Part shown: piece by piece, positions 1 through 23,498 of the stretch | Layout of the letters: each line of letters opens with the position of its first letter | Numbering within the stretch: position 1 is the first letter of the stretch | IMG/VR virus record: IMGVR_UViG_3300035180_000626 | Location: 1 to 23,498 of that record | Direction: 5' to 3' (one strand) | Length of the DNA: 23,498 nt | Origin: a virus | Translations under genes and position numbers: made by a program | Notes under the pieces: model-generated | What the model was told of the DNA's origin: nothing | Seen by the model: only the letters and a program-made list of their open reading frames with translations | The model's database searches: none

Positions 1-459
1 TTTGGCACTATTTCCATAGTTAGACCCATTATCTCTACCTTTCCTTATTGTAGGTATTTCTTTCTTTACTAGCCCCTGTGCATTATACATACATTGATTT
101 TTATAAAAAATTAAGATATTTTCGTGTGCTTTCATAGGTTGTTTTTTAGCATTAAGATGGCCTGTTTGCTTACTTTTATGCCATATCCATTCATATTTTA
201 AGTAATCAATTTGTGACGCTCCAAGCATTTTATCAAAGGGGGGTTGTGCCGTTAAAACAATAGCCGCATTAGGTTTGCATACCCGCCAATATTCAGCCCA
301 TAATTTATTTAGTGGTAATATGCTATCCCATTTATTTTGTGTTGTACCATATGGTAAATCGCATAATACCATATCAATAACACCATCGGGTATTTCTTTC
401 ATTGCATCAAAGCAATCGGCATTATAAAATCTGCCACCTTTTAAATCTTGATACCACAT
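1..459 (-). CDS. DNA methyltransferase, N6-adenine/N4-cytosine type (C-terminal part off window)
   Basis: The reading frame is open from the ATG at 459 to the window edge (153 codons), so the C-terminus is missing. Residues 34-38 read DLPYG, a form of catalytic motif IV ((D/N/S)PP(Y/F)) of amino-methyltransferases, followed by TTQNKWD as in many phage site-specific MTases. The stretch from about residue 62 (KPNAAIVLTAQPPF) resembles the following strand of the fold. The family transfers a methyl group from SAM to adenine N6 or cytosine N4 in duplex DNA. Its start overlaps the stop of the clamp gene in a TAATG, so it is the last visible gene of the leftward operon. Target specificity cannot be read from sequence; self-protection against host restriction is an inference. 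Confidence 0.85.
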   Translation of the reverse strand, partial: MWYQDLKGGRFYNADCFDAMKEIPDGVIDMVLCDLPYGTTQNKWDSILPLNKLWAEYWRVCKPNAAIVLTAQPPFDKMLGASQIDYLKYEWIWHKSKQTGHLNAKKQPMKAHENILIFYKNQCMYNAQGLVKKEIPTIRKGRDNGSNYGNSAK

Positions 460-1457
460 TACCGCATACCCGCAATAACACCACGTATATTATCACCGAA
501 GAAATAGACATAAGATTGGCTTACATTCAAGTCTATTAGTGTTGCATAGGGTTCTATCAACTGCATGTACTTATAGTTAACAGAAATTCCTTTAGGCAAT
601 CCTTCAACCGCATAGGTTGCCCCTGCACCATCTACTTCTTCAGTTGCTAGCTGCCCCTCATTAATCATAATGCGGCTAGATTTGTGGGCAAATGGTTTAA
701 TTGCATCAATGCCCACAAATAGCATAGGTGGTACAGGAATGGGTTTAGATGGTAAGTTAATCAATTTGGTTATATCAGGCCATTTATCATTATACATTTG
801 TGTTCTAATCCAACTACCATCAGTAAACCAGAAAGTAACAGAAGTAGCTGAATAGCCCATTTTGTCAAGTGATTTACCAGACTTTAAAATAGCAGCAAGC
901 GCGGCTTTTGGGATTGGGTATTCACCAGGCATATCTATGCCATGCCAATATTCAAACAATACTTCACGATTTGTAGAGTACATTGAATTAGTTTTGAGTA
1001 ACACTGAAGCAGTAACAACATGCTCACTATTATCCGCCACGAGTATCTGTACAGCTTCAAACCCCTTTTTCAAATTATCATTGATAATAATTGTAGGGCT
1101 ATCCGGCTGTGCATAGGTCATAGCCATAGGCTCAGCACAAGGTATTACTGCTTTGAAGTTTTCAGACTTGATTGATAGCTTGTAATTATCAAGCTGTGTA
1201 ATAGATAAACTTTCACCGCATTTTGAAAGCGCGGCGGTTAATTTTACCGTGTGTGGGCAAATACTAATATCTTCTTCAATGACTTGACCGGCTGCTAGCA
1301 AACCATTGAAGGCTGTTGCGGCCCTGTTCCCTAGCACACAGTAAGTTTCAAAAACTTGGCCTTCTTCTTTTTGCACCAATGACACAAATTTAAGTGCGGC
1401 TAGCAGTGAGCTAGTTGCACCAGGTTCTGCTTTAGCTTTGCGGGGGCCTCTAGCCAT
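459..1457 (-). CDS. DNA polymerase III beta-like sliding clamp
   Basis: This 332-residue protein resembles phage-encoded DnaN-like processivity factors: an N-terminal region with AALKFVSLVQ and the CPHTVKLTAAL stretch, and a C-terminus with YFFGDNIRGVIAGMR, similar to the ending of bacterial beta clamps, where the last strand closes in PMR. It is a little shorter than bacterial DnaN (about 370 residues). The family forms a ring around DNA and tethers polymerase and other partners. It overlaps the upstream 70-residue gene and the downstream methyltransferase by one base each (TAATG), indicating translational coupling. No DNA polymerase gene is visible, so it may load host Pol III or work with the PrimPol at 8269-10602 (inference). 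Confidence 0.75.
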   Translation of the reverse strand: MARGPRKAKAEPGATSSLLAALKFVSLVQKEEGQVFETYCVLGNRAATAFNGLLAAGQVIEEDISICPHTVKLTAALSKCGESLSITQLDNYKLSIKSENFKAVIPCAEPMAMTYAQPDSPTIIINDNLKKGFEAVQILVADNSEHVVTASVLLKTNSMYSTNREVLFEYWHGIDMPGEYPIPKAALAAILKSGKSLDKMGYSATSVTFWFTDGSWIRTQMYNDKWPDITKLINLPSKPIPVPPMLFVGIDAIKPFAHKSSRIMINEGQLATEEVDGAGATYAVEGLPKGISVNYKYMQLIEPYATLIDLNVSQSYVYFFGDNIRGVIAGMR

Positions 1458-1669
1458 TAGAAAGGCACCACTTCTTCATAGCTAGAGCAACCATTAGCAA
1501 TAACTCTTGCTGGTGGCCTGCATTTAGCAAGCTCACAAACTTCAGTTTTTTCTGTGAAGTTATCACAAGTAATACAGGTGCGAATAGAACTATTAAGCTC
1601 TACCCTAATAACTTCAGTTAAGCGCCTGATAATATCATTTGTTGCTAGTTCACGTTCACTAATATTCAT
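1457..1669 (-). CDS. small Cys-rich protein, same module as nuclease C-terminus
   Basis: A 70-residue protein of no recognised named family. An N-terminal helix-like part (residues 1-30) is followed by a cysteine module: C32-x2-C35-x9-C45-x15-C61, with an extra C50. The C-terminal tail of the nuclease at 3424-4281 has C246-x2-C249-x12-C262-x15-C278, with the same x15 spacing and the same GC-x2-aromatic ending, so both probably fold as the same small metal-binding unit. The gene starts inside the helicase gene's end (11-base overlap) and couples to the clamp start. A role as a metal-binding adaptor in the replication complex is only an inference. Confidence 0.7.
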   Translation of the reverse strand: MNISERELATNDIIRRLTEVIRVELNSSIRTCITCDNFTEKTEVCELAKCRPPARVIANGCSSYEEVVPF

Positions 1670-3257
1670 AGCCTAACACCTCTGGATAAGGAAGCTTATT
1701 AACCCATACTCTAATTCTTTTTGGTACCCTTAGCTGTGCAGCAATGCTTAGCACATTGTCGGTAGTTGCACCATCTTCATATTCTTTAGCTAGTGGTATG
1801 CGCTGCCTGAGCCAATCTAAAGCTAGCTTTCTAGCTTTAGGATTATCAAAAGCTACCCATTCTTTAAACATTTGCATATCACAATAGTAGGTAACTCTAA
1901 CTGATGGTGGCTTACCAATTTTTTCATGCTTAAGATAAGTTACCTTATTTACATTGAAGTACTCTACCAAAGGTATGCCGGTAGAAATTAATTCTTCAGT
2001 GCTTGCTGTGTCTTTAAACTTATCTTCAAAGATAAATTCAAAATTACACGCTGCACAAAACCTTACTGAAGCATGGTTATAGCAGCCACATTCTTCACAG
2101 ATTTTTACAGGTGCATCACCTGTACCCTTACCCTTCTTTTTTGGTATAACAGGGTCATTGATAGGCCCAAGCTTCTTAGTATTTCCTGCAAAGTCTAACA
2201 CCATGCAAAATTGTTTGCCGGTTGCCGGTGATGGCCTGGTACCTCTGCCTAACATTTGTACCCACAATACGGGTGATATTGTAGGGCGCAACATGACAAT
2301 TAAATCAAGCGGTGGGTGGTCAATGCCGGTTGTAAGCTTGCCCATATTCACAGCCCATTTAACCCGGCCTGCCTTCCAGTCTGCTAAAGCCTTCTCATTT
2401 ACTTCATCAGACTTTTTAGAATGTAAGCACACAGAAGTTTGCCCGAATACCTTAATAAGCATTTCATTGATATGTTCAGCATGTTGTATGCCCGTAGCAA
2501 ATACCATAGCAGAGCGCCTAGAGGGTGCATAAAGCATAGTTTCTTGAAGGGCTGCAAAGGTAGTCTTTTCATTGTCTACTAGCTCTTGTAAATCATGCTG
2601 CTTGTAATCACCGTTTGAAATACCAATTCCACTAGCATCTATTTCAACATTGGTTTTCTTTGGTATAAGTGGCGCTAGGTAGCCTTCAGCTATCAACCTG
2701 GTGAAAGCTTCTACCCCCGTTAGATTATAGCATATATCCGTGAATATACCCCCATCAGTAATATAACCTTGTCCTAACCTCCAAGGTGTAGCAGACAAAC
2801 CAATTACCTTAAAATAAGGGTTTATAGCCCTAAAGTGATTAATCACCCTACCATACATAGTTTCAGCATCAGGCGATACTAAATGAGCTTCATCTATAAA
2901 GCCTAAGTCTCTGTGCCCAAATGCCCCCAAGTTACGCACAATGGAACCTACACCCCCGAAAATAATAGGTGCATGGGTTTCTTTACGGTTCAAACCGGCT
3001 GAATAGATGCCCAAGGGTGCTTGCGGCCATGCCTCTAAAAGCTTGTTAGAATTTTGCTCTATGAGTTCTTTAACGTGTGTCATTTTGATTACACGCTGCC
3101 CAGGCCAGCCTTGGAAAATACGTTTTATTGTATTAGCAATCACAATTGATTTGCCGGTACCTGTGGGCAAGGCAATAACAGGATTTCCATTATGATTAGC
3201 AAAGTAATCAAAAATAGATTGTTCTGCTTCCTGCTGATACCATCTAGGTTGAAACAT
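1659..3257 (-). CDS. SF2 DEAD/DEAH-box helicase with zinc-finger-like insert
   Basis: The 532-residue protein carries the SF2 motif set: Walker A PTGTGKS at residues 31-37, DEAH at 122-125, SAT at 155-157, and motif VI as QMLGRGTRPS in the second RecA-like domain. After the helicase core there is a CEECG...CAAC four-cysteine knuckle, a layout seen in RadD-like and phage recombination helicases. The family unwinds or remodels branched DNA using ATP. It lies between the 61-residue gene (TAATG coupling) and the Cys-rich gene in the leftward replication/recombination operon, so branch migration or replication restart is the likely role. Which substrate it prefers is not visible. Confidence 0.9.
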   Translation of the reverse strand: MFQPRWYQQEAEQSIFDYFANHNGNPVIALPTGTGKSIVIANTIKRIFQGWPGQRVIKMTHVKELIEQNSNKLLEAWPQAPLGIYSAGLNRKETHAPIIFGGVGSIVRNLGAFGHRDLGFIDEAHLVSPDAETMYGRVINHFRAINPYFKVIGLSATPWRLGQGYITDGGIFTDICYNLTGVEAFTRLIAEGYLAPLIPKKTNVEIDASGIGISNGDYKQHDLQELVDNEKTTFAALQETMLYAPSRRSAMVFATGIQHAEHINEMLIKVFGQTSVCLHSKKSDEVNEKALADWKAGRVKWAVNMGKLTTGIDHPPLDLIVMLRPTISPVLWVQMLGRGTRPSPATGKQFCMVLDFAGNTKKLGPINDPVIPKKKGKGTGDAPVKICEECGCYNHASVRFCAACNFEFIFEDKFKDTASTEELISTGIPLVEYFNVNKVTYLKHEKIGKPPSVRVTYYCDMQMFKEWVAFDNPKARKLALDWLRQRIPLAKEYEDGATTDNVLSIAAQLRVPKRIRVWVNKLPYPEVLGYEY

Positions 3258-3442
3258 TAGATTGCTTTAGCTAGCTCTAGTTCATGGATAGATTTGCACT
3301 TAGGGCAAGTTACTTTTGCGTAGTTAGATGTAATCCAAAATGTTGCCCCTGCTTTTGATAACACTTCAAACTTGCATAGCACATTAAAGGCATTAGTGTT
3401 ATCATTTGCATAATGCACAATCTCTACACTATTGGTACCCAT
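3257..3442 (-). CDS. hypothetical 61-residue protein with a CxxC
   Basis: The family is not recognised. The 61-residue protein has a mixed beta-rich N-terminal part and a CPKC motif at residues 47-50, followed by a helix-like ending. A single CxxC is not enough for a zinc site unless it dimerises. Its start lies within the end of the nuclease gene (19-base overlap) and its stop overlaps the helicase ATG as TAATG, so it is embedded between two DNA-processing genes. The tight packing supports it as a real gene; function is unknown. Confidence 0.65.
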   Translation of the reverse strand: MGTNSVEIVHYANDNTNAFNVLCKFEVLSKAGATFWITSNYAKVTCPKCKSIHELELAKAI

Positions 3443-4281: not shown

Positions 4282-4301
4282 AGTAGCCCTTTCATAAGTT
4301 A

Positions 4302-4322
4302 GGGGCAGGCTTAGCCTGCCCC
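4302..4322. terminator. 9-bp perfect hairpin between ssDNA-binding and nuclease genes
   Basis: GGGGCAGGC and GCCTGCCCC flank a 3-base TTA loop. On the leftward transcript the hairpin lies between the stop of the 221-residue gene and the nuclease ribosome-binding site, but no T-run follows, so strong termination is unlikely; it may act as an mRNA processing or stability element, or attenuate. In the rightward sense CCCTTCTTT follows, so it could stop antisense transcription. Confidence 0.5.
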
Positions 4323-4342
4323 CCTTCTTTACGCAGTACTTA

Positions 4343-5008
4343 TTACTTCTGCCAGGGGGCGCGCCCTGCTGGCGGCTGTTGCTGCCAAGGGGCGGCAGCG
4401 GCGGGCGGCTCTTGTGGTGGTGGCTGATTAGCAGGGGGTTGCTGAGTCGGTGGCTGGTTCCACTGTGTAGTAGGGGGTTGCCCTGCTAGTGCAGCCCAAG
4501 GCCCACCCTGTGCGGCTGGTGGGGGCTGTTGTGCTGGTGGTGGTGCTTGGTGCGCCTGAGGGGCAAAGCCTGCTGAGTTTGCCGGTGGCTGCTGTGGTGC
4601 TTTGCCTGGTTCATTACCATTAGCATCAAACACCTTATTAACCTGCATAAAGTCACTATCTTTTTGCTTAGTAACTTCAATCATGCAGCGCGCACCACGG
4701 AAAGCCGCGCCTTCATTCATCATAGAAGCACGAAAAATGCCTGTGGCATGAGACAGGGCAGCAAGCCGCTTATGTGAGTTATCAGCCGTTTCTTGCTTAG
4801 GTGACCATAGCCCATAGTACTTTTTAATTGTACCGGCTGGTGTTTCAAACTCTACTACAAACTGTGGCCTGCCTTCAGCATCATCTTTAATAGGCACAAT
4901 AGATGTATTGATAATAACAGCAGGGAATTTACCCTCAGGGTGGTTATTTAGCCCGCCCTGTTCTGGTGTATATTGGTTTGCATCAAATTCATAATTAAAA
5001 CCAGTCAT
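4343..5008 (-). CDS. probable single-stranded DNA-binding protein with P/Q-rich tail
   Basis: The 221-residue protein has a folded N-terminal part (about residues 1-125; contains YYGLWSPKQE and the FRGARCMIEV strand) resembling DUF669-type phage ssDNA-binding proteins, which sit next to Sak/Sak4 ATPases. From about residue 130 to the end it is low-complexity, rich in Pro, Gln and Ala, ending APWQK, like the flexible tails of SSB proteins but without the acidic tip. The local DNA is more GC-rich for this reason. It lies between the RyR-domain gene and the nuclease. Binding of ssDNA and recruitment of partners through the tail are inferences from family and context. Confidence 0.6.
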   Translation of the reverse strand: MTGFNYEFDANQYTPEQGGLNNHPEGKFPAVIINTSIVPIKDDAEGRPQFVVEFETPAGTIKKYYGLWSPKQETADNSHKRLAALSHATGIFRASMMNEGAAFRGARCMIEVTKQKDSDFMQVNKVFDANGNEPGKAPQQPPANSAGFAPQAHQAPPPAQQPPPAAQGGPWAALAGQPPTTQWNQPPTQQPPANQPPPQEPPAAAAPWQQQPPAGRAPWQK

Positions 5009-5044
5009 TGTATTTACTTTCCTAGGTTAGGGGTTAAAGTTAAA

Positions 5045-5419: not shown

Positions 5420-5439
5420 AATTGCTACCTTTCACCCAC

Positions 5440-6411: not shown

Positions 6412-6619
6412 TGTTACACCTTTTGTCATTGCTCTTTTTTGCCGCGCAATCTTTACCACTAGGCCCTAGTTCTGGGATGTCTTTAGCATGTATTTCATCA
6501 CCATCTAATGCCCTGCCCGCCTGTGGGCAAGGGTAAACAAAGGTAATATGCCTATTACCATCATTAATAATTTGTGATGGTGCATAACATGCCAGAACCA
6601 AGGCGGCAACCTTAAACAT
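6404..6619 (-). CDS. hypothetical 71-residue protein
   Basis: No family is recognised. The N-terminus (MFKVAALVLACYAPSQ) is hydrophobic for about twelve residues but is followed by IINDGNRHITFVYPCPQAGR, which looks like a folded strand region rather than a secreted mature part, so a signal peptide is doubtful. The C-terminus is polar and Lys/Asn-rich. It couples to the 152-residue gene upstream (TAATG) and overlaps the KTSC gene start. Being in a tight operon supports expression; function is unknown. Confidence 0.65.
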   Translation of the reverse strand: MFKVAALVLACYAPSQIINDGNRHITFVYPCPQAGRALDGDEIHAKDIPELGPSGKDCAAKKSNDKRCNNG

Positions 6620-7077
6620 TATTTCACCATAAAACCTAGCAATGTTTTGCGCTTACGCGGCTGCACTTCCAAAACTCCTACAGGTGGTGGGGGTTCATTG
6701 GTAAAGTAGCCTATCATTGCTTCAGTCTTTTGCTGCATAGCTTGGTTGCGTGCAAGTAAATTATCAAAGCGGTTATTAATATCATTTACCATAACATCAT
6801 AGCTATTATAAATAGCCTGGATAGTCGTAGCTCTATCTTGTTCCAGTGTATCAGCTTCAATCCTAAGCAGGTCAAGCGTGTACCTATGATCTTTAACCAT
6901 AAGTTGCCCTGAATTACTGATGCTTCTAGCCTGGTGTGCAAGATGATTTGCAAAGTTCTGCAAATCATCAAAGGCGGGCAAAACCTCAGGTGCATACGTT
7001 TCTTGCTGTGGTGGTTTATCCTCTACCGGCATTGGGGGCCTTTCTGTTAGGCGCGGAAATTTAATTGCTGTGTTCAT
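6619..7077 (-). CDS. hypothetical helical protein, 152 residues
   Basis: No family is recognised. A proline-rich N-terminal arm (about 1-30) is followed by a long, largely helical part (about 35-125) with polar heptad-like patterning, probably coiled coil, then a Pro stretch (NEPPPPVG) and a basic ending RKRKTLLGFMVK. Such a layout suits an oligomeric structural or adaptor protein. It is the third gene from the leftward promoter and therefore presumably early. One of only four GATC sites in the window (6888) lies within it. Confidence 0.65.
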   Translation of the reverse strand: MNTAIKFPRLTERPPMPVEDKPPQQETYAPEVLPAFDDLQNFANHLAHQARSISNSGQLMVKDHRYTLDLLRIEADTLEQDRATTIQAIYNSYDVMVNDINNRFDNLLARNQAMQQKTEAMIGYFTNEPPPPVGVLEVQPRKRKTLLGFMVK

Positions 7078-7106
7078 ATTACACCTGTTGAAGTTAAGGT
7101 TGAAGA

Positions 7107-7340: not shown

Positions 7341-7341
7341 A

Positions 7342-8050: not shown

Positions 8051-8269
8051 TTGCTTGACACAATCCCTTGTGGATTACTCCACACAACCACACTAAACCT
8101 AGTTAGAAACCGCACTCGCTCATTGACCTTTGAGCGAATTAGTCACGATACCGGCCTAAGCGTATCATGGCTGAAAACCTATTGCCAGGGCAAAAGTAAG
8201 CAGCCTTGTGTTAGCCATGTAGAATTGCTCTATACTTATCTATCTGGCAAGCGCCTGGTGCTAGAATAA
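8051..8269 (+). CDS. small helix-turn-helix DNA-binding protein, TTG start
   Basis: The frame runs from a TTG at 7973 but the TTG at 8051 is preferred because of the GAAAAGGG ahead of it and the promoter at 7995-8023. The resulting 72-residue protein has a helix-turn-helix at about residues 26-50 (FERISHDTGLSVSWLKTYCQ), followed by a helix ending YTYLSGKRL, typical of small phage Cro/excisionase-like regulators or terminase-like wHTH modules. Its stop overlaps the ATG of the replication protein (TAATG). Position in the divergent control region suggests it regulates the two arms, but a replication-initiator role next to the PrimPol is also possible. Confidence 0.65.
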   Translation: MLDTIPCGLLHTTTLNLVRNRTRSLTFERISHDTGLSVSWLKTYCQGKSKQPCVSHVELLYTYLSGKRLVLE

Positions 8270-10602
8270 TGCTTGAAAATTTCTATAATATTCCTGAAGA
8301 AATGCGGCTACTTAAACAGTGGTGCGTATGGCGCTATGAGGAAACAGAAAATGGTAAGCCCACAAAGGTACCATATCAACCTAATGGCTACCATTGCAGC
8401 GTAACAGATAATAGTACATGGTGCACATTTGATGAAGCCGTAGCCTCTTGCAAGTGGTCAAGTGGTAAGCTATCCGGTATTGGTTTTGTGTTTGATCGGG
8501 GTGGAAAATATGCGGGCATTGATTTGGATGCCGCACCTGATGAAGCCACTAGCCAAAGGCAACAGAAGATATTTGCAGCCTTTGATAGTTATGCAGAGCG
8601 TAGCCCAAGTGGTAAAGGTTTGCACATCATCATTAAGGCTATCCTGCCTGGTGGTAGACGCAGAAGCAGCATAGAGCTTTATTCTTCTGACAGATTCTTT
8701 ACTATGACGGGTGATGTATTCAATGCTAAGCCAATTGCTGAAAGGCAAGGGCTTGCGGATATACTGTATGAAGAATTGGGCAAGGTTAAGAACGTATCAA
8801 ACTACCTTGGCACAATAGAGGAAAATAGTTCAGATGCTGAGATTATAAACAAAGCCTTAGCGGCTGTGAATGGCGACAAGTTTAAGACACTACTAGAGGG
8901 CAGATGGCAGGATTTATACCCAAGCCAATCTGAAGCAGACTTGTCTTTTATGAACATGGTAGCCTTCTACACGCATTCACGTAATCAAATTGTGCGTATC
9001 TTCAGGGCTAGCCCTTTGGGCAAACGCGAAAAGGCAAATAGGGCAAATTATATAGAATATATGTTGAATAAGGTTTTTGACCAGGTATTGCCCCCTGTTG
9101 ACATAGAGGGTTTACAGGAAGCTTTTGATGCTGCCAAGGAAGCACACACGGCGAAAGTGCAGAAGGCAAATCAGCCCACCCCACTACAACAAACTGATTT
9201 AGCTTCACATACTGACATTCATTCAGATACACAAACTGATAGCCCATATGTTTTGCCACCTGGTTTGCTAGGTGAGATTGCACAATTTATCTATCAATGT
9301 TCCCCGCGTCAAGTACCAGAGATTTCCCTAGCTGCTGCAATTGCTTTCATGGCGGGGATTACAGGCCGCGCCTACAATGTATCAGGCACGGGCTTAAATC
9401 AGTATGTGCTGTTGCTTGCCCCTACCGGCACGGGTAAAGAAGGCATGGCTTCGGGGATTGATAAGCTGGTTGCATCTATCCGTGATGAAATACCGGCTAT
9501 TAAAGACTTCATAGGCCCTGCTGAGATTGTATCAGGTCAAGCGCTGCTTAAGTATGTCTCTAAGACTTCATCTAGCTTTGTATCTGTTGTGGGTGAGTTT
9601 GGCCTTAAGATGCAACAGCTATCTAACCGCCATGCTAATACTGCTGAGATTATGCTTAAGCGTGTACTGCTAGACATCTACAACAAGTCAGGCTATGGTA
9701 AGCAGCTACAAGCTGCTATCTATTCACAAAAAGAAAACAGTACAGATATGGTGAATAGCCCTGCTGTTACACTGTTAGGTGAAAGCACACCTGAAACCTT
9801 CTTTCAATCCATAGATGAAAATATTATTGCTGATGGCTTATTGCCCCGCTTCACCCTTATAGAATACAATGGTGTTAGACCGGATTTAAATTATAATCAC
9901 GGTTCTGCAACACCTTCAGAAGGGCTTAAAGAAAGGCTGGCTGCATTGGTAGCCCATTGCCTTAGGCTTAATAATGGTGTTAATAATATGCCTATGTGTG
10001 TGCATGTAAATGCCACGGATGCAGCAGCTAAAATACTAAATGAATATGACGTATTTGCCACAGCTAAAATTAATGGCTCAGATGTAAATGTAATCCGGCA
10101 CCTTTGGAATAGGGCACATATTAAAGTACTCAAATTAGCCGCCCTAATTGCCGTGGGCTGTGATGCTTACAACCCTGTTATTAAGACTGAGTATGCACAA
10201 TGGGCTATTAATGTTGTTAACTTCGATGTAGCTAAGCTCTATAATAGGTTTGCTTCAGGTGACTTTGGCAAAGATGAAAATGAAAGTAAGCAACTTGATT
10301 ATATCAAAGCCGCAATTAAACATTATCTTACATCTACCTTTGCACAAGTTAAAATGTATACCCACAATGAAGAATTGCACAAAGCTAAAATTATTCCTTA
10401 TGCCTATCTCAGTAAAAAATTGATTAGTGCTGCACCATTCAGGTTAGATAAAATTGGTTCTACTAATGCAATTAAGAAAGCTTTGGTTAACCTGGTTGAC
10501 AGTGGTGCAATTAAAGAGATTGGTAAGTTAGACCTGAATACAAAGCATAACACTAGCCAAAAGGCATTTATGGTGGAGGATATGGCGTGGTTGTGGAACT
10601 AA
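8269..10602 (+). CDS. bifunctional primase-polymerase with DUF3987-like ATPase
   Basis: A 777-residue replication protein. Residues 1-170 form a PrimPol domain of the phage NrS-1 polymerase type: WCVWRYEE, PTKVPYQPNG, the catalytic GIDLD (D85, D87), ERSPSGKGLHI (111-120) and ELYSSDRFFTMTGD (136-149). After a Thr/Asp/Gln-rich linker around 295-325, a DUF3987-like ATPase domain begins, with Walker A APTGTGKE (384-391) and a VVGEFG Walker B-like strand further on. The C-terminal part is helical. The family makes primers and can extend them, and the ATPase part probably unwinds DNA. It follows the HTH gene with TAATG coupling and precedes an AT-rich gap that could be the origin. No other primase or replicative helicase is seen. 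Confidence 0.85.
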   Translation: MLENFYNIPEEMRLLKQWCVWRYEETENGKPTKVPYQPNGYHCSVTDNSTWCTFDEAVASCKWSSGKLSGIGFVFDRGGKYAGIDLDAAPDEATSQRQQKIFAAFDSYAERSPSGKGLHIIIKAILPGGRRRSSIELYSSDRFFTMTGDVFNAKPIAERQGLADILYEELGKVKNVSNYLGTIEENSSDAEIINKALAAVNGDKFKTLLEGRWQDLYPSQSEADLSFMNMVAFYTHSRNQIVRIFRASPLGKREKANRANYIEYMLNKVFDQVLPPVDIEGLQEAFDAAKEAHTAKVQKANQPTPLQQTDLASHTDIHSDTQTDSPYVLPPGLLGEIAQFIYQCSPRQVPEISLAAAIAFMAGITGRAYNVSGTGLNQYVLLLAPTGTGKEGMASGIDKLVASIRDEIPAIKDFIGPAEIVSGQALLKYVSKTSSSFVSVVGEFGLKMQQLSNRHANTAEIMLKRVLLDIYNKSGYGKQLQAAIYSQKENSTDMVNSPAVTLLGESTPETFFQSIDENIIADGLLPRFTLIEYNGVRPDLNYNHGSATPSEGLKERLAALVAHCLRLNNGVNNMPMCVHVNATDAAAKILNEYDVFATAKINGSDVNVIRHLWNRAHIKVLKLAALIAVGCDAYNPVIKTEYAQWAINVVNFDVAKLYNRFASGDFGKDENESKQLDYIKAAIKHYLTSTFAQVKMYTHNEELHKAKIIPYAYLSKKLISAAPFRLDKIGSTNAIKKALVNLVDSGAIKEIGKLDLNTKHNTSQKAFMVEDMAWLWN

Positions 10603-10771: not shown

Positions 10772-10788
10772 GGGAAACATAGATTCCC
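10772..10788. repeat. small hairpin between TTGTACTTA repeats
   Basis: GGGAA (10772-10776) and TTCCC (10784-10788) flank a 7-base loop and are followed by TTTTG. It could be a weak terminator for the PrimPol transcript or part of a replication signal. Confidence 0.4.
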
Positions 10789-10924: not shown

Positions 10925-11554
10925 ATGAAAATACTTGTAGGTTGTGAAGAATTTGGTAAGGTAAGGCAAGCATTTCGCAATTGTGGGCATGATGCTTGGA
11001 GTTGTGATATATTGCCTGCTGCTGATAATTCACCTTATCATATTCAAGACGATGTAACTAATGTGTTACACTTGAAATGGGATATGGCTATATTATTTCC
11101 ACCATGCACTAGGCTTTGCTTGTCTGGTGTTAGGTGGCTGCATGTACCACCATTAGGTAAAACACTAGAACAGATATGGCAAGAGCTTGAAGAAGGTGCT
11201 GCATTGTTTAGTGATTGCTGGAATTGTGGCATACCTAGGTTGTGTGTTGAAAATCCTATAATGCACCCATATGCTATAGAGAGAATACACAACTATCAAA
11301 AACCACAACAATTTGTGCATTCTTATTGGTTTGGTTATCCCGAATTTAAATCCACAGGACTGCATCTTAGAGGTTTGCCACTAATAAAGCCTACTAAGAT
11401 GCTATGGCCACCTAAAACTGGTACAGATGAGCATAAGAAATGGTCAAAGGTGCATCGGGCTAGCCCTGGCCCTAATTGTGGTAGATTGCGCGGTGAAACT
11501 AATCAAGGCTTAGCTAACGCTATGGCTGAACAATGGGGTTTAAATAGTGCTTGA
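10925..11554 (+). CDS. cytosine-5 DNA methyltransferase-like protein
   Basis: The 209-residue protein starts with a SAM-binding-like strand-loop (KILVGCEEFGKVRQAF), has an acidic residue at the end of the second strand (AWSCDILP), and a PPCT motif at residues 59-62 followed by SGVRW, the arrangement of a phage group annotated as DNA (cytosine-5) methyltransferase-like. It is much shorter than true m5C methylases (about 300-400 residues), with no visible target-recognition region, so catalytic activity or target is uncertain; it could modify free nucleotides or be a degenerate relative. Its TGA overlaps the -35 box of the next promoter. Confidence 0.65.
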   Translation: MKILVGCEEFGKVRQAFRNCGHDAWSCDILPAADNSPYHIQDDVTNVLHLKWDMAILFPPCTRLCLSGVRWLHVPPLGKTLEQIWQELEEGAALFSDCWNCGIPRLCVENPIMHPYAIERIHNYQKPQQFVHSYWFGYPEFKSTGLHLRGLPLIKPTKMLWPPKTGTDEHKKWSKVHRASPGPNCGRLRGETNQGLANAMAEQWGLNSA

Positions 11555-11935: not shown

Positions 11936-12178
11936 ATGAAGATTATCAAAGGTTTATATTGGGCTAGCAAGCCTAGTGTAGAAGTAACAGTAGCGGATGC
12001 TGCAAAAGATTCACTTAATTATTCAGATAGTGAAGATACTATTAGGCGTTTGCAAGATATGCTTGATAAGCAAGCATCAGTTATTGCTTTGCTTGCCCAG
12101 GCCCTGCATAATGGTGGGTGCTTGTATAGCCCAGTAATTGCAGATATGCTGAGTTATGAATATAGGATAGAGGAATAG
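11936..12178 (+). CDS. hypothetical 80-residue protein
   Basis: No family is recognised. An N-terminal beta-like stretch (IIKGLYWASKPSVEVTVADA) is followed by an acidic linker and a helix with leucine-rich spacing (TIRRLQDMLDKQASVIALLAQAL), perhaps a coiled coil, then a short tail. It is the first gene after the terminator at 11888-11920 and begins a run of closely packed small genes. GGGG eight bases upstream of the ATG provides ribosome binding. Confidence 0.6.
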   Translation: MKIIKGLYWASKPSVEVTVADAAKDSLNYSDSEDTIRRLQDMLDKQASVIALLAQALHNGGCLYSPVIADMLSYEYRIEE

Positions 12179-12505: not shown

Positions 12506-12853
12506 ATGCTAATTAAAGATAGAGTAGAATACTTAAAGGCTATCAATACAGCCTTGCATATGCAAACAAACAATAATTTGCACCCAAGCTATAGATGTGG
12601 TGTATTCCTCACTATGGAAAGTTGGCGGGCAATCAAAGAAGCCTTGCAGCGTGATATTACCCACAGTGAAGCATTGTTAGCAGCTTATGGTGATTACCTT
12701 GCTGTGGAAGAAAAGCAGCTAGGGTTTATTATGCAGGGTTCTAGAGATTGGAAGCCCGCCCCAATTATTCAGCAAGCTTATGATAGGATTACTGCACAAC
12801 AAGATATTGATGCTGATGCACCAGGTTATAGGAAAGGCCTTAGCCATGATTAA
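12506..12853 (+). CDS. hypothetical 115-residue protein
   Basis: No family is recognised. The ATG at 12506 is chosen over an upstream TTG at 12419 because the latter would overlap the 37-residue gene for most of its length and AGG lies at a fitting distance from 12506. The protein is largely helical (VEYLKAINTALHMQ; MESWRAIKEALQRDITHSEALLAAYGDYLAVEEKQ) with polar faces and a flexible end. Its TAA overlaps the nuclease start by 8 bases. Confidence 0.6.
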   Translation: MLIKDRVEYLKAINTALHMQTNNNLHPSYRCGVFLTMESWRAIKEALQRDITHSEALLAAYGDYLAVEEKQLGFIMQGSRDWKPAPIIQQAYDRITAQQDIDADAPGYRKGLSHD

Positions 12854-13235
12854 TCCTGAAACATATGCTAAAGATACAGAGCACAGTCACCAGGTTGCAG
12901 TATTTGTGTGGGCTAGCTTGCCCCCTCAGCAGAAAGCTTATCCTGAGCTTAAATATATGTTTGCTATTCCTAATGGTGGCAAGCGTGATAAGATTACATC
13001 TTCTAATTTGAAAGCTGAAGGTGTTAAGCCCGGTGCACCTGATATTATGCTGCCAGTAGCCAAGCGCCATTATCACGGCTTGTTTATTGAAATGAAGAAA
13101 CCTAAAGGTGGGGTAGTTAGCGAAGATCAAGTACAATTTATTGACAGTCTTAGGCTTAATGGTTATTATGTCGCTGTGTGCACTTCCTGGTCGCAAGCTA
13201 GAGATTGCATTGTATGGTATATGAGTAATACTTAA
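12846..13235 (+). CDS. VRR-NUC family nuclease
   Basis: A 129-residue single-domain VRR-NUC protein, a PD-(D/E)XK nuclease subgroup found alone in many phages and fused in FAN1. Visible motifs are FAIPNGGKRD (39-48), KPGAPDIMLPV with D66, GLFIEMKK with E82 and K84, and Q95 on the following helix. Stand-alone phage VRR-NUC proteins are Holliday-junction-type resolvases or structure-specific endonucleases. The start at 12846 is set by AAAGG upstream and an 8-base overlap with the previous gene. Junction resolution during replication or packaging is the likely role. Confidence 0.85.
   Translation: MINPETYAKDTEHSHQVAVFVWASLPPQQKAYPELKYMFAIPNGGKRDKITSSNLKAEGVKPGAPDIMLPVAKRHYHGLFIEMKKPKGGVVSEDQVQFIDSLRLNGYYVAVCTSWSQARDCIVWYMSNT
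13141..13169 (+). promoter_or_regulatory. intragenic promoter candidate in the VRR-NUC gene
   Basis: TTGACA (13141-13146), 17 bases, TATTAT (13164-13169, 5 of 6) lie in the 3' part of the nuclease gene, about 90 bases ahead of the next gene at 13259. Confidence 0.5.
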
Positions 13236-15763: not shown

Positions 15764-15769
15764 AACTTA

Positions 15770-15826
15770 CCCCTACTCTTTGCAGCAAAACAGATTGTAG
15801 CGTTTGCTAAGAGTAGGGGCCTTTTT
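15770..15826 (+). terminator. strong long-stem terminator
   Basis: CCCCTACTCTT (15770-15780) pairs perfectly with AAGAGTAGGGG (15809-15819), and the stem continues with interruptions through GCA..AAA and TTTGC inside the loop. CCTTTTT follows. It ends the transcript of the 228-residue gene. Confidence 0.85.
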
Positions 15827-15836
15827 AAAGCATTAG

Positions 15837-15951: not shown

Positions 15952-15987
15952 AATATTTTCTTAACCGCTAGGACATAGCAGCCCGCC

Positions 15988-16845: not shown

Positions 16846-16846
16846 T

Positions 16847-17050
16847 ATGCTTAAATACCTTGTTGTTCTGCGTTATATTTTGCAGCTATTAGGCTTTGTT
16901 GCAAAAGAAATTAATGACGCAGAACAACAAAAGGTAGGGCAAGATCAACAGCAATTAAGGCAGAATAGGGTAGACCTAGATGCAATCCACAAAGCTAACC
17001 AGGCTGCTACTGCTGCTGTTGACAAGTTTAGGGATATTTGGGTGCAGTAA
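16847..17050 (+). CDS. inner-membrane spanin (Rz-like) candidate
   Basis: The 67-residue protein has an N-terminal hydrophobic span (residues 3-19, KYLVVLRYILQLLGFVA) followed by a Gln-rich coiled coil (about 20-65, containing QQKVGQDQQQLRQNR). This is the layout of i-spanins, which reach across the periplasm and fuse with the o-spanin to disrupt the outer membrane. It is shorter than lambda Rz (153 residues). It starts one base after the endolysin stop, and a lipoprotein frame overlaps its 3' part in the +1 register, which is the usual Rz/Rz1 architecture. Confidence 0.65.
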   Translation: MLKYLVVLRYILQLLGFVAKEINDAEQQKVGQDQQQLRQNRVDLDAIHKANQAATAAVDKFRDIWVQ

Positions 17051-17445: not shown

Positions 17446-17483
17446 ATCTTGTGTTTTGCCACACTTTGCGCTAGGTGTGGGCA

Positions 17484-17888
17484 ATGTGGCCTAGTGATGC
17501 ACAAATAAATGAAGAAAAACGGGCTTTTGTAAGGGCCTGGTTGAAGATAAGCGACCCTTTTAAGGCCGCTGTTGCTGTATTTGGCCCACTTCAAGCGAGC
17601 AAATGCCTTAAGGTTGCTGATGAATGGCCTAAAGACTCTCTTGTATTGGCTCTTAAAGAGGAATTGCTAGAAGAAAATGGTGAAGAAGCCTTTTTACCCA
17701 GCAAAGCCGAGCTTGCACGGCGGGTAATTGATACAGCAGATGGTTTTATCCAAGTAGAAAATAAGCTTAAAGCCCTAAGGCTGTATGCTGAAGTTATGGG
17801 CTTCATTGCTAAGCCTGAAAACGATAATGGGCCTAAAGGTGCCGGTGTTGTAGCGGTTACTTTAACCCCGAATGAGGCTAAATTATGA
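17484..17888 (+). CDS. terminase small subunit
   Basis: The 134-residue protein directly precedes the large terminase region. It contains helical DNA-binding-like parts (NEEKRAFVRAWLKISDPFKAAVAVFG) and a central LPSKAELARRVIDTA helix, with the end (NDNGPKGAGVVAVTLTPNEAKL) resembling terminase small subunits that recognise packaging sites. The ATG at 17484 with AGGTG seven bases upstream is preferred over a GTG at 17475. It overlaps the next gene by 4 bases (ATGA). Confidence 0.7.
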   Translation: MWPSDAQINEEKRAFVRAWLKISDPFKAAVAVFGPLQASKCLKVADEWPKDSLVLALKEELLEENGEEAFLPSKAELARRVIDTADGFIQVENKLKALRLYAEVMGFIAKPENDNGPKGAGVVAVTLTPNEAKL

Positions 17889-18127
17889 GTGCAGAAATTA
17901 CTGTATTGCCCGGTGTTGTCAGAATTACAGAAGAGCAAAGTAAAGTGCCGGTAGAAAGGGTACTGAAAAGTGCTATGGATGCAAACCTAGCCACTGTTAT
18001 TATAGTTGGCTTTGATAAGCTAGGCACTAGGCATATTTATAGTTCAGAGGGTAACTATTTTGCTAGCGTAGGCAAACTATATGCTGCTGCTAACTGGCTA
18101 GCGTGTGGAACACCTACAGAAGAATGA
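17885..18127 (+). CDS. conserved hypothetical protein between terminase genes
   Basis: The 80-residue protein (MSAEITVLPGV...) sits between terminase small and large subunits with ATGA overlaps on both sides. It contains a helix (VPVERVLKSAMDAN) and a beta-like unit (TVIIVGFDKLGTRHIYSSEG) with a final helix (SVGKLYAAANWLACG). I recall similar short proteins in phage packaging regions but no assigned function. Confidence 0.65.
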   Translation: MSAEITVLPGVVRITEEQSKVPVERVLKSAMDANLATVIIVGFDKLGTRHIYSSEGNYFASVGKLYAAANWLACGTPTEE

Positions 18128-19470
18128 AACTTACAACCAAACAATTGTTAGCTGAAATAATACTAGCTAGTGTTGCTACCTATGTTATGTTGTTCGGTGG
18201 TTCTAGGTCTGGTAAAACCTTTCTTATTGTGCGTAGCATTGTGGTTAGGGCTATTAAAGCCCCCTTTTCGCGGCATGTTATTTTAAGGTTTAGGTTTAGC
18301 CATGTAAAGCAATCTATTATGCTTGATACTTTCCCTAAGGTCATGTCTCTGTGCTTCCCTGGTATGGCATACAAACTAGACAAGGTAGATTACTTTGCAA
18401 CCCTACCTAATGGTTCTGAAATTTGGTTTGGTGGCCTAGATGATAAAGAACGTACAGAAAAGATTTTGGGTAAAGAGTTTGTTACTATATTTCTGAATGA
18501 GTGCAGCCAAATATCATGGAATGCTGTGGGCTTAGTGATTACTCGCTTAGCTCAGAAAGCTATGCAAATTATTGATGGGGTAGAGGTTGGCTATCTTACA
18601 CCTAGAATGTATTTTGACTGCAACCCACCCTCTAAGCTTCATTGGACTTATCTTCTATTCATTAAGCATCTTAATCCTGATAATGTTAAAACCCCGATAG
18701 CACACCCTGAAAGGTATGCACACTACAAGCTTAATCCTCAGGATAACGCAGAAAACTTAACTGAAGGCTATATTGATACCCTGAGTGGGCTTAGCCCTAG
18801 GTTGCGTAAGCGCTTCTTAGAAGGGGAATTTGCAGATGGTGTTGCTAATGCATTGTTCACTGATGAAACTATAGATAAGTGGCGTGAAACTGATTTAAGC
18901 AAGCTACCCAAAATGGTGCGTATTGCTATTGGTGTAGACCCTTCAGGCTCAGATGATGCAGACAATGCAGATAATGATGAAATAGGTATTGTTGCAGCCG
19001 GTCTAGGCATTGATGGTAACGCCTATATATTGCGTGACCATACTATTAAAGCAGGGCCTGGTGTTTGGGGTAAGGTTGCTACACAGCTATATGATGATTT
19101 GCAAGCTAACCTTATTGTGGCTGAAGTCAATTTTGGGGGTGCAATGGTCAAGCAAACTATCCAAGTTGCACGGCCTGGTACGCCATTTCTAGCGGTGACG
19201 GCCTCTAGGGGCAAGCACATACGGGCTGAGCCTTTCTCAGCCCTGTATGAGGCCGGAAAGGTACGTCACGCGGGGGATTTTTCAGAATTAGAGGCGGAGT
19301 TAACCAACTTCACCACAGTAGGTTTTGTGGGCAGTAAAAGCCCCAATAGGGCAGATGCTGGTATATGGGCCTTGACTGCCCTATTCCCTGGGCTTACAAA
19401 ACCCAAAGAAGATAATAGCCAAGTGCAGGTTATCCCCACAGTTTCAATGTTCAATAAGAAAGTTAGGTAA
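18124..19470 (+). CDS. terL: terminase large subunit
   Basis: The 448-residue protein has the ATPase Walker A GGSRSGKT at residues 25-32, a Walker B-like strand TIFLNECSQIS with catalytic E, and the nuclease domain beginning with IAIGVDPSGSDD, whose Asp residues coordinate the metal. It cuts concatemeric DNA and powers its packaging through the portal. The ATG at 18124 (ATGA overlap with the previous stop) is used instead of the upstream ATG at 18103. It is followed two bases later by the portal gene. Confidence 0.95.
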   Translation: MKLTTKQLLAEIILASVATYVMLFGGSRSGKTFLIVRSIVVRAIKAPFSRHVILRFRFSHVKQSIMLDTFPKVMSLCFPGMAYKLDKVDYFATLPNGSEIWFGGLDDKERTEKILGKEFVTIFLNECSQISWNAVGLVITRLAQKAMQIIDGVEVGYLTPRMYFDCNPPSKLHWTYLLFIKHLNPDNVKTPIAHPERYAHYKLNPQDNAENLTEGYIDTLSGLSPRLRKRFLEGEFADGVANALFTDETIDKWRETDLSKLPKMVRIAIGVDPSGSDDADNADNDEIGIVAAGLGIDGNAYILRDHTIKAGPGVWGKVATQLYDDLQANLIVAEVNFGGAMVKQTIQVARPGTPFLAVTASRGKHIRAEPFSALYEAGKVRHAGDFSELEAELTNFTTVGFVGSKSPNRADAGIWALTALFPGLTKPKEDNSQVQVIPTVSMFNKKVR

Positions 19471-19472
19471 TT

Positions 19473-21659
19473 ATGACTGATATAGAATTGAATGATGAAA
19501 CTGGTGATGAAAATACTAGCAAACGCAATGAAGCTAAATTGCGTGAAGTGCACGAAGAAGCACTAGCAGACTTTACCCGCGTTCAAACTATTATGAAAGA
19601 TGAACGTGACCAGTGTCTAGAAGATAGGCGTTTTTATTCTATTGCTGGTGCACAATGGGAAGGCCCATTAGGTGAGCAATTTGGCAATAAGCCCAGGTTT
19701 GAAGTAAATAAAATACATCTTTCTGTTATTCGTATCTTTAATGAATACCGCAATAATCGAATTACTGTTAATTTTGTGCCTAAAGATGGCTCAAAAGGGG
19801 GTAAGCTTACTGATACATGCAATGGGCTTTATAGGGCTGATGAACAGAATAGCGGTGCTGAAGAAGCCTATGATAATGCATTTGAAGAAGGTGTAGGGGG
19901 CGGTTTTGGTGCATGGCGTTTACGTAATGATTATGTAGATGATGAAGATGAAGATGATGATGAACAATGCATTTATATAGAGCCTATTTTTGATGCTGAT
20001 AGCTCAGTTTATTTTGACCCTGATGCAAAAAGGCAAGATAAATCTGATGCTAATTACTGCTATGTTCTTTCTTCAATGACACATCAAAGATTTAAGGCTG
20101 AGTACCCTGATGCAGTTTGGCCCACGTCTTTCCCTAAGACTACCAAAAGCACACAATTTGATTGGTATACCCCTAGTGTAGTGTATATTGCTGAGTACTA
20201 CAAGGTAGAAAAAGTAGCAATTACGCAAATAACCTATACCGGCCTTAGTGGTGAAGTGCAGAAGTATGATAAAGCTGCCTTTGACGATAAAGAAGTAGGG
20301 CCTGAGCTTAAGAAACAACTTGCAGCTACTGGTTTTACAAAAACAAAAACAAAAACTATTACACGGCGCAAAGTTCATAAGTATATTATGTCTGGTACGG
20401 GTATAGTAGATGATTTGGGCTATATTGCGGGTAAGCATATTCCTATTGTGCCCTTCTATGGTAAGCGTTGGTTTATTGACAATGTAGAAAGGTGCATGGG
20501 GCAGGTAAGACTCGCCAAAGATACGCAGCGCCTTAAAAATATGCAAATTTCTAAAATGGGTGAAATTGCTGCTTTCTCTACCGTAGAAAAACCTATCGTT
20601 ACCCCACAGCAAATAAATGGTCATCAAGTTTCATGGTCTAGGGATAACATAGATAATAACCCCTATTTGCTGTTAAACCCCATACTCGATGCCCAAGGGC
20701 AGCTATTGCCAACAGGGCCTATTGCCTATACTAAGGTGCCAAACATACCGCCTGCTATGGCTGCATTGTTGCAAATGACAGATGCGGATATGTCAGACTT
20801 GTTAGGCAATCAAGAGGCCGGTGAAGTTGTAACACCAGGTACTTCAGGTGTAGCTATTGACTTGGTGCAAGCTAAGCTTGATATGCAAACCTTTATTTAT
20901 ATCTCTAATATGTGCAAAGCTATTAAGCGTTCTGGTGAAATTTGGCTAGAAATGGCTAAAGAAATCTATGTAGAAAAAGACCGTAAACGCAAAACTGTTA
21001 ATGAAGCTGGTGAAGCTTCTAGTGTTATTCTTAATCAGCCTGGTAAAAATGATGAAACAGGTGTAGTTGAAACCCAAAATAATCTTACTGAAGCTGATTT
21101 TGATGTTAATGCAACGCCTGGGCCCACCTCAGCAAGCAAGAAAGCTGCTACTGTAAGAGCTTTGGTTAACTTATTGGGGGTAACACAAGACCCTGAAACA
21201 GTGCAAGTGCTCACCGCCATGATTATGATGAATATGGAAGGTGAAGGCATTGGTGAGATTAGAGACTATTTCAGAAAGAAACTGCTTACTATGGGGGTTG
21301 CTCAGCCAACGCCCGAAGAAGCAGCAGAACTTGAAAAGAAACAGGCAGAGGCGGCAAATCAACCACCTGATGCTAACACACAATTCTTGCAGGCTTCAGC
21401 AGAAGAAGCAGCAGCTAATGCACTGAAGGCTAAGGCCTCTGTTGTGGCTACTACAGCTACTGCTGAGAAAACCAAGGCTGAGACTATGCAAATTCTGCAA
21501 GACTTGGAAGGTGGCAAGATTGAAACGGTTATGGGGGCCATAGAAAGGCTACAGGCGATGGCCTTAAAGTCGGGTAGTTTGGTGCCACCAGGTGCCGCGC
21601 CCGCCCCCACAGCCCCCGCCCCTGCTTCCGGTGCCCCTATTGTGCAAATCCCTTCATAA
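19473..21659 (+). CDS. P22-like portal protein
   Basis: The 728-residue length is nearly that of P22 gp1 (725). The N-terminal part contains ERDQCLEDRRFYSIAGAQWEG and the VNKIHLSVIRIFNEYRNNR helix typical of P22-type portals; the middle has KHIPIVPFYGKRWFIDNVER and ADMSDLLGNQEAG; the C-terminal part is Ala/Glu-rich helix followed by a Pro/Ala tail. The dodecameric ring forms the DNA entry channel and binds terminase. The gene follows terL and precedes the scaffold. Confidence 0.9.
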   Translation: MTDIELNDETGDENTSKRNEAKLREVHEEALADFTRVQTIMKDERDQCLEDRRFYSIAGAQWEGPLGEQFGNKPRFEVNKIHLSVIRIFNEYRNNRITVNFVPKDGSKGGKLTDTCNGLYRADEQNSGAEEAYDNAFEEGVGGGFGAWRLRNDYVDDEDEDDDEQCIYIEPIFDADSSVYFDPDAKRQDKSDANYCYVLSSMTHQRFKAEYPDAVWPTSFPKTTKSTQFDWYTPSVVYIAEYYKVEKVAITQITYTGLSGEVQKYDKAAFDDKEVGPELKKQLAATGFTKTKTKTITRRKVHKYIMSGTGIVDDLGYIAGKHIPIVPFYGKRWFIDNVERCMGQVRLAKDTQRLKNMQISKMGEIAAFSTVEKPIVTPQQINGHQVSWSRDNIDNNPYLLLNPILDAQGQLLPTGPIAYTKVPNIPPAMAALLQMTDADMSDLLGNQEAGEVVTPGTSGVAIDLVQAKLDMQTFIYISNMCKAIKRSGEIWLEMAKEIYVEKDRKRKTVNEAGEASSVILNQPGKNDETGVVETQNNLTEADFDVNATPGPTSASKKAATVRALVNLLGVTQDPETVQVLTAMIMMNMEGEGIGEIRDYFRKKLLTMGVAQPTPEEAAELEKKQAEAANQPPDANTQFLQASAEEAAANALKAKASVVATTATAEKTKAETMQILQDLEGGKIETVMGAIERLQAMALKSGSLVPPGAAPAPTAPAPASGAPIVQIPS

Positions 21660-21664
21660 GGGGC

Positions 21665-21691
21665 TTGCATTTGTGGGCAAAGCAGTATAAC
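21665..21691 (+). promoter_or_regulatory. weak promoter candidate ahead of scaffold and coat
   Basis: TTGCAT (21665-21670) and TATAAC (21686-21691) are 15 bases apart, shorter than ideal. It is in the 87-base gap after the portal, where extra expression of scaffold and coat would be useful. Confidence 0.25.
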
Positions 21692-21746
21692 AGGAATTTT
21701 ACACGGTTTCCAATTTACCTTAAATTGAGATTTTGAAGGGTTAAAA

Positions 21747-22616
21747 ATGGCTAATAAAGAGGCTGATGAAACTAATACTGAAGTTGTGGTAAAACCTGAG
21801 GACATTAATCAGGAAACCAAAACTACCGAAACTGAAGGCAAAGAAGCTGGTGGTGAAGGTGATGAAGTAGTAGTTTTAATTGATGGGGTTTCGCCTAACC
21901 CTGAAGATGTAGAAGATACAGCAGAAACCCCTGTTTGGATTAAAGACCTAAGGCAAAGGTACAAAGAAAGCAGTAAACAACTTAGGGCTAAAGATGAAGA
22001 AATTGAGCGGCTTAAGAAAGCCCTACCTTCGGCTAAGCCCACCGAAATCGGCCCAAAACCCACTTTAGAGGGTTGCGAGTATGATGAAGGGAAGTTTGAA
22101 ACTGAGCTACTTTCATGGCAGAAGCGCAAAGATAAAGCTGAAGCTGAAGTTGCTGAAAAGCAAAAGGAAGTAGAAGAAGTACAGAAAGTCTATCAGGTCA
22201 AACAACAGGGTTATGAAGTATCTAAGAGTAATCTTAAGGTTAAAGACTTTCCTGAAGCAGAAGATGTAGTTAAAGCTACATTCTCAGTAGTGCAACAGGG
22301 GATTATTATTAAAGGCTGCAAAGATGCCTCAATAGTAGTCTATGCCTTAGGTAAGAACCCTGATACATCTAAGAAACTAGCAGCCATTAAAGACCCTATA
22401 GAGTTTGCTTTTGAGGTTGCGCGATTGGAAGGAAATCTAAAAGTGTCAACCAGGAAAGCCCCCCCACCGGATAAGAAGCCTAACGCTAGCGGCGGTGCTT
22501 CTAATGCGGGTGGTGTAGACAAAGAGCTAGACCGTCTTAGGGCTGAAGCTGAAAAAACTGGTAACTACACAAAAGTAGTAGCTTACAAGAAACAGCTTAA
22601 GGATAAGACGGGCTAA
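21747..22616 (+). CDS. capsid scaffold protein
   Basis: The 289-residue protein is similar in length to P22 gp8 (303). It has an acidic, low-complexity N-terminus (Glu/Thr/Val-rich), a long charged coiled coil (about 65-160, containing KDKAEAEVAEKQKEVEEVQK), a middle helical part, and a C-terminal basic helix (LDRLRAEAEKTGNYTKVVAYKKQL) like the coat-binding C-terminus of scaffolds. It lies between portal and coat, the standard place. Scaffold assists procapsid assembly and is released. Confidence 0.8.
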   Translation: MANKEADETNTEVVVKPEDINQETKTTETEGKEAGGEGDEVVVLIDGVSPNPEDVEDTAETPVWIKDLRQRYKESSKQLRAKDEEIERLKKALPSAKPTEIGPKPTLEGCEYDEGKFETELLSWQKRKDKAEAEVAEKQKEVEEVQKVYQVKQQGYEVSKSNLKVKDFPEAEDVVKATFSVVQQGIIIKGCKDASIVVYALGKNPDTSKKLAAIKDPIEFAFEVARLEGNLKVSTRKAPPPDKKPNASGGASNAGGVDKELDRLRAEAEKTGNYTKVVAYKKQLKDKTG

Positions 22617-22644
22617 AACCCCACTTTTCTCTTAAGGTAATAAA

Positions 22645-23498
22645 ATGGCTAATAGCTTTAACAAAGAAGAACGTGTAGCGTTTGAAGATTTGCTTGAAGG
22701 TTTTCAGGATGCCCTGGTACTTTCAAAAAATGTTGCAATCTACCAGACTGATATGAGCGAAATGGAACGTAGTGGCGACACTATTTGGCGTCCACAGCCT
22801 TATATTGCTCAGTCTTTTAACGGTATGGACCAATCCGCTAACTTTAAGGATAACACGCAGCTTGCAGTGCCTGCCACGCTTGGTTATTCTAAGGCTGTGC
22901 CTTGGGTTATGGATGCTAAGCAGTTGCGTGATGCTTTGCAGGAAGGCCGGTTGCTTGAAAGCGCAAAGCAGAAACTTGCATCAGATATTAACGTAGCCCT
23001 TAACAGTGTAGCCTCATTGCAGGGTACGCTTGTGGTTAAGCGTACAGTATCCGCATCAGGCTATGATGATGTGGCCCAGGCTGAAGCCCTGTTTAATGAA
23101 CAGGGTATTATGGCCGCTGACAGGGCTATGGCGCTTTCCACCCGCGATTATAACGGTATGGCAAGCAACCTTGCAGCCCGCGCCTATATTACACCTGGTT
23201 CTATGCCTTCTGATGCCTACAAGAAATCCTATGTTGGTGTTGTGGCCTCATTTGACACTTTCAAGCTGGATTATTCCCCCCGCTTGGTTGCTGCTACTGC
23301 AACTGGTGTTACAATGAATGGTGCTAACCAGTATTACACCCCTAAGGCTGTAACTACAGCTAATACAGGTGAAACTGCAAACGTAGACAACCGTTATCAG
23401 ACTATTGCAATCACTGTTGTAGGTGGCACTGTTAAGGCTGGTGATGCCTTCACTATTGCCGGTGTTAATGCTGTGCACCATATCACTAAGCAAGACAC
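22645..23498 (+). CDS. major capsid protein, P22 gp5-like (C-terminus off window)
   Basis: The frame is open from the ATG at 22645 (AAGG seven bases upstream) to the window edge, showing 284 residues; P22 gp5 has 430. The sequence begins MANSFNKEERVAFEDLLEGF and contains RSGDTIWRPQPYIAQSFNGMD and AVPATLGYSKAVPWVMDAKQLRD, characteristic of the P22 coat family. The later part (TPKAVTTANTGETANVDNRYQ, VVGGTVKAGDAFTIAGVNAVH) corresponds to the inserted beta-rich domain. It forms the icosahedral shell. Confidence 0.9.
   Translation, partial: MANSFNKEERVAFEDLLEGFQDALVLSKNVAIYQTDMSEMERSGDTIWRPQPYIAQSFNGMDQSANFKDNTQLAVPATLGYSKAVPWVMDAKQLRDALQEGRLLESAKQKLASDINVALNSVASLQGTLVVKRTVSASGYDDVAQAEALFNEQGIMAADRAMALSTRDYNGMASNLAARAYITPGSMPSDAYKKSYVGVVASFDTFKLDYSPRLVAATATGVTMNGANQYYTPKAVTTANTGETANVDNRYQTIAITVVGGTVKAGDAFTIAGVNAVHHITKQD

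Follow-up and report, generated by a model that had tools for sequence, protein, structure and literature searches.

Avoidance of restriction sites by phages has long been known in kind, and the genome of T7 is nearly devoid of the palindrome GATC throughout. The same genome-wide near-absence is described for phiX174 (PMC5014478). When GATC was scored by the compositional bias of Burge (CB), phages whose hosts carry a GATC-cutting restriction endonuclease had values below 1 in 46 of 46 cases and below 0.8 in 45 of the 46 (Rusinov et al. 2018, PMC6286503). Here we analyze a 23,498-base stretch of viral DNA (IMG/VR virus record IMGVR_UViG_3300035180_000626, positions 1 to 23,498; the window hereafter) from an uncultured P22-like phage, in which both GATC and a second palindrome, GANTC, have nearly disappeared. 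Clean double avoidance of this pair is unusual, and the case is unusually clear.

The window resembles the double-stranded DNA phages of Rusinov et al. 2018, among which GATC is the type IIM site that all 46 phages with matching hosts avoid, in its strong and palindrome-specific under-representation on both strands. It differs from them in that the cognate enzyme is a presumed one, that two sites are avoided together, and that a CB of 0.25 does not fall below 0.1. The isolated cyanophage Anabaena phage A-4L (KF356198, positions 1-41000, locus L273) is likewise without GATC, with 0 sites in 41 kb. Unlike the window, to which it is unrelated, it is free of GGCC and GGNCC as well and retains 63 GANTC sites; three palindromes have thus been eliminated from it.

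Depletion of GATC and GANTC

An initial annotation had read four GATC sites from the sequence, at 6888, 8494, 13125 and 16943, and a program count of all 23,498 bases returns exactly these (Table 1). The 80–90 sites that it had expected proved too many by about two to five fold, fair controls giving 16–48, although the near-absence itself is real. Base composition predicts 86.8 sites, a figure inflated because the GA/TC dinucleotide is scarce in the window. Dinucleotide shuffles predict 33.4±5.3, an order-2 Markov model 46.8, and a shuffle of synonymous codons between all genes, which preserves proteins and codon usage, 47.6±4.9 (minimum 32 in 1000). When the dinucleotides at codon junctions are also held near-fixed, the codon shuffle gives 25.4±4.0 (minimum 16 in 250; z -5.4), and CB, the strictest model, expects 15.9 sites, which places GATC at 0.25. 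The four observed sites lie below all of these expectations, and the depletion therefore holds under every null model used, including the Markov and codon-shuffle checks that had been proposed for it. Sites have been lost in all three codon frames, with 4/0/0 observed and 34/2/11 expected from the codon shuffle.

The second avoided palindrome, GANTC, was missed by the initial annotation. It occurs six times in the window, five of these inside listed genes, and the codon-based comparisons use those five. Expectations are 34 from dinucleotide shuffles, 39 from the codon shuffle, 22.3 from the junction-held codon shuffle and 24.4 from the Burge model, and the resulting CB of 0.25 shows the same degree of depletion as for GATC. 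Under the order-2 model, GAATC/GATTC makes up the bulk of the missing sites (3 seen against ~32 expected), and the expectation for GAGTC/GACTC is too low to separate a HinfI-like GANTC specificity from a TfiI-like GAWTC one. In a ranking of 32 palindromes built as WXYZ or WXNYZ, GATC and GANTC are the lowest and the next stands at 0.76. The two also have the lowest CB values among 272 four-letter words, and both are known type II recognition palindromes.

The depletion is written into codon choice. GAT codons had been noted to be almost never followed by C, and this is so in all but 4 of 303 cases. Aspartate is encoded by GAT 4 times and GAC 27 times before C, as against 299 and 61 times before A, G or T (Fisher p=1.5e-15), and the effect of a following C is far weaker at asparagine (p 2.6e-4), tyrosine (0.11) and histidine (0.008). 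After a codon ending in G, isoleucine is never encoded by ATC (0/56; elsewhere 62/388, p 2.5e-4), and the serine codons that follow a GAN codon are 25 AGY and 2 TCN, while elsewhere TCN prevails over AGY by 223 to 141 (p 2e-8). These shifts at three amino acids therefore indicate selection on the DNA word in different frames, exerted via synonymous choice.

Avoidance among related viruses

For comparison we used 67 IMG/VR loci, each 8 kb or longer, that are related through the terminase large subunit (TerL) or the portal. Their median CB is 0.90 for GATC and 0.95 for GANTC, and GATC is near zero in three of them: L054 (0 sites, 35 expected), L106 (0, 53 expected) and L105 (2, 47 expected). These three loci, with P22-like portals, match the window in holding 0–2 GATC sites in 15–21 kb. 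Unlike the window, L105 and L106 retain GANTC (CB 0.90), and L054 is also without GGCC, CCGG and others. L077 has three GANTC sites (CB 0.12) and normal GATC (CB 1.06), and L112, a relative by its replication genes, has a CB of 0.27 for GANTC and 0.77 for GATC.

A TerL tree contains one supported eight-member set (96/94) made up of the window, L054, L077, L075/L076, L003 and L080/L081. Within it the window avoids both words, L054 avoids GATC, L077 avoids GANTC, L075/L076 avoid GANTC in part (0.50), and L003 and L080/L081 avoid neither. The pairing of the window with L054 is weak (62/78) and the branches are long; L105 and L106 gave no comparable TerL. Avoidance among the relatives is palindrome-specific, labile and lineage-specific, and, with related phages avoiding different palindromes, it seems to follow the hosts and not the descent of the phages. 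Independent palindrome loss also occurs elsewhere in this phage group, where L010, L019, L020, L023 and their kin have 0–2 sites of GCGC, CGCG or CCGG against about 10–30 expected. The expectations for CGNCG in cases of zero counts are crude and were set aside.

Restriction and its alternatives

With a probability of roughly two in three, we explain these observations by ordinary anti-restriction site loss in ancestors exposed to host systems that cut GATC and GANTC. The ancestral phage would have shed the sites singly, mostly through synonymous changes, because type II restriction enzymes of the host cleaved unmodified copies, one enzyme presumably acting on GATC (of the MboI/DpnII/Sau3AI kind) and another on GANTC or GAWTC (of the HinfI/TfiI kind). 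The 4 + 6 sites left in 23.5 kb would offer few chances of cleavage at entry, and the phage's own putative methyltransferases may cover them. We infer both that restriction was the selecting agent and that two separate enzymes were at work; with changing host restriction, the avoided words would be expected to differ from one relative to the next, as they do. The proposal of the initial annotation, that the phage had long been exposed to a host system directed at GATC, stands as the best-supported reading of a loss that is DNA-level, site-specific, present in every frame and lineage-specific, but it is incomplete in that GANTC is avoided equally. The window would then preserve in its codons a clean trace of the earlier encounters of an uncultured phage with host systems directed at GATC and GANTC, and the pair of avoided words would be a weak clue to its host, pointing to bacteria with both kinds of system.

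Three points weigh against this explanation. The cognate endonuclease is only deduced, and several routes of host search gave no assignment. On the strictest measure, the CB of 0.25 for both sites misses the level below 0.1 at which a site is called eliminated (PMC6286503). Finally, in prophage loci of alphaproteobacteria GANTC, the site of CcrM methylation, is mildly depleted (median CB 0.59, versus 0.96 in beta- and gammaproteobacterial loci), which does not require restriction.

The last point also speaks for an alternative that we regard as unlikely, in which the phage avoids the epigenetic adenine-methylation sites of Dam (GATC) and CcrM (GANTC), with no part played by classical type II cleavage of unmodified DNA. 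Host methylation would here mark DNA for a methylation-dependent nuclease (DpnI-like or type IV), or would disturb phage replication or transcription. GATC and GANTC are the best-known sites of solitary methyltransferases, which fits this idea. Endonucleases of the DpnI/winged-helix kind that depend on N6-methyladenine have moreover been described (PMC11037411). However, the idea requires that both words be methylated in one host or in hosts that alternate, whereas the relatives lose one word without the other and also lose GCGC, CGCG and CCGG, sites without such an epigenetic role; the host and nuclease that it calls for are hypothetical.

We find it improbable that methyl-directed mismatch repair by Dam/MutHLS, and not restriction, was responsible, with MutH nicking unmethylated GATC in replicating DNA or the avoidance of repair raising the mutation rate. 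An account of this type has been proposed for T7-like phages and phiX174. GATC counterselection is classical in enterobacteriophages (Deschavanne and Radman 1991 and McClelland 1984, both cited in PMC5014478), and phiX174 has 0 GATC sites against about 20 expected (PMC5014478). Mismatch repair predicts the loss of GATC alone, whereas in the window, unlike in the enterobacteriophage cases, GANTC is lost equally, and L077, from the same TerL clade, has lost GANTC yet retains GATC. MutH is also restricted to some gammaproteobacteria, which counts against its involvement, and the host search ended without an assignment. We would therefore place restriction above mismatch repair on the strength of the second motif and the relatives, rather than of a test in the host.

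It is highly doubtful that one host defence, an N6-methyladenine-dependent nuclease, reads both Dam- and CcrM-type marks, with selection then favouring a phage that escapes the notice of both main epigenetic adenine methylases of bacteria. We give almost no credence to a compositional artefact, in which low GA/TC and codon bias suffice to make both palindromes rare: the window does have low GA/TC (odds ratio 0.63), GGA (0.57) and GAC (0.66), the GATC expectation does drop from 87 to 16–25 once this is modelled, and a context bias unrelated to restriction does exist in the non-palindrome CTCC/GGAG (11 sites versus 54.5 expected), but the observed GATC and GANTC counts lie under every one of the 250–1000 shuffles in each codon-based model, no other of the 272 words has so low a CB, and the codon switch at aspartate before C far exceeds the context effects at asparagine, tyrosine and histidine.

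Methyltransferases, gene content and host

A beta-class N6/N4 DNA methyltransferase gene and a second, putative methyltransferase gene lie in the window (Table 1). The first, truncated at the left edge, matches phrog_12862 (E 1e-47) and PADLOC MTase_II (E 3.5e-52); because of the truncation, its match to Pfam N6_N4_Mtase (E 3e-5) is under the Pfam cut-off, and a full-length homologue in L112 spans the entire domain. It is possibly a counter-restriction gene. The product of the second gene has no Pfam match. Protection of GATC by a phage methyltransferase is possible in principle, as in the lactococcal phage Phi93 (PMC4190342). Phages with close homologues of the truncated methyltransferase keep GATC, as seen in L112 (74% identical; 21 sites, CB 0.77), L139 (72% identical; CB 0.92) and L003 (CB 0.74), whose record holds a 70% identical copy (L154). 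We also considered GATC avoidance as a group trait of the relatives that carry this methyltransferase, and rejected it on a median order-2 ratio of 0.85. The records of the GATC-depleted loci L054, L105 and L106 are free of N6_N4 and D12 methyltransferases, which would fit site loss serving in place of self-methylation.

Two further observations concern these genes in other viruses. At L154:4983-5734, in the related phage, two overlapping reading frames (113 + 156 aa) share the homologous methyltransferase between them, through either a frameshift in the gene or an error in the sequencing. The phage of IMGVR_UViG_3300043411_001575 (169,658 bases; locus L187) seems to collect methyltransferases, with 16 genes of N6_N4 type and one of D12 type on one strand within ~38 kb (77,956-115,619); the 10.4 kb examined contain no GATC, GGCC, CCGG or CTAG.

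The window (41.8% G+C) is a fragment comprising ~60% of a P22-like tailed phage whose relatives measure 35–40 kb. Besides the P22-like portal, terminase and P22-like coat, it encodes an NrS-1-type primase-helicase, a RadD-like helicase, a Cas4-like exonuclease, a Sak4-like annealing protein and a GH108 lysozyme. The same block order is found in the complete relatives MW202867 and MW202475, and in PfAn1 for the head genes (sizes 34.5–40 kb); all three have normal GATC and GANTC (CB 0.91–0.98).

Table 1 Positions in the window of the remaining GATC and GANTC sites, the putative methyltransferase genes and the marker genes. SAM, S-adenosylmethionine.
Feature	Position	Strand	Remarks
Residual GATC site 1	6888..6891		GAT/C frame, gene 6619-7077 (-)
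Residual GATC site 2	8494..8497		GAT/C frame, primase/helicase gene 8269-10602
Residual GATC site 3	13125..13128		GAT/C frame, VRR-NUC gene 12780-13235
Residual GATC site 4	16943..16946		GAT/C frame, open reading frame 16847-17050
Residual GANTC site (GAGTC)	4444..4448		
Residual GANTC site (GATTC)	8693..8697		
Residual GANTC site (GATTC)	10782..10786		Between listed genes
Residual GANTC site (GATTC)	12008..12012		
Residual GANTC site (GACTC)	17634..17638		
Residual GANTC site (GACTC)	20509..20513		
Beta-class N6/N4 DNA methyltransferase, truncated at contig edge	1..459	-	153 aa; has DLPY motif, lacks C-terminal SAM motif
Second putative DNA methyltransferase	10925..11554	+	phrog_757 E 1.4e-42
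Terminase large subunit	18103..19470	+	Marker for finding related viruses
P22-like portal protein	19473..21659	+	Pfam P22_portal E 6e-161; second marker

The host was sought by several routes. There are no tRNAs in the window. TerL matches in genomes do not exceed 63% identity and are scattered over alpha-, beta- and gammaproteobacteria, and searches with the lysozyme, primase, helicase and coat indicate differing groups. At E 1e-40, the coat protein found only an already known Sphingomonas genome (49% identity) among 754 sampled genomes (369 + 385, from two classes). The nearest isolated TerL, that of Ssp-JY42 (PP438432, L277), carries a Synechococcus label that we did not use as host evidence, because the record has 67% G+C and encodes a GcrA-like regulator. 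The latter is annotated as a GcrA cell cycle regulator, typically an alphaproteobacterial protein, and the host label may be wrong.

The dinucleotide signature of the window is unusual (GA/TC 0.63, CG 0.45, GC 1.61, TA 1.02). No named sequence among those tried was the closest to it; with the identical contig L002 set aside, the nearest among all the loci is L054, also an uncultured virus free of GATC, and this likeness suggests a shared kind of host. Strong depletion on both strands also affects the non-palindromic word CTCC/GGAG: 13 sites are present against 34 expected under the Burge model, and 11 lie inside genes against the 54.5 given by the junction-preserving codon shuffle. The coding strand has GGAG 10 times and CTCC 3 times, and the loss is therefore not solely avoidance of internal words that resemble ribosome-binding sites.

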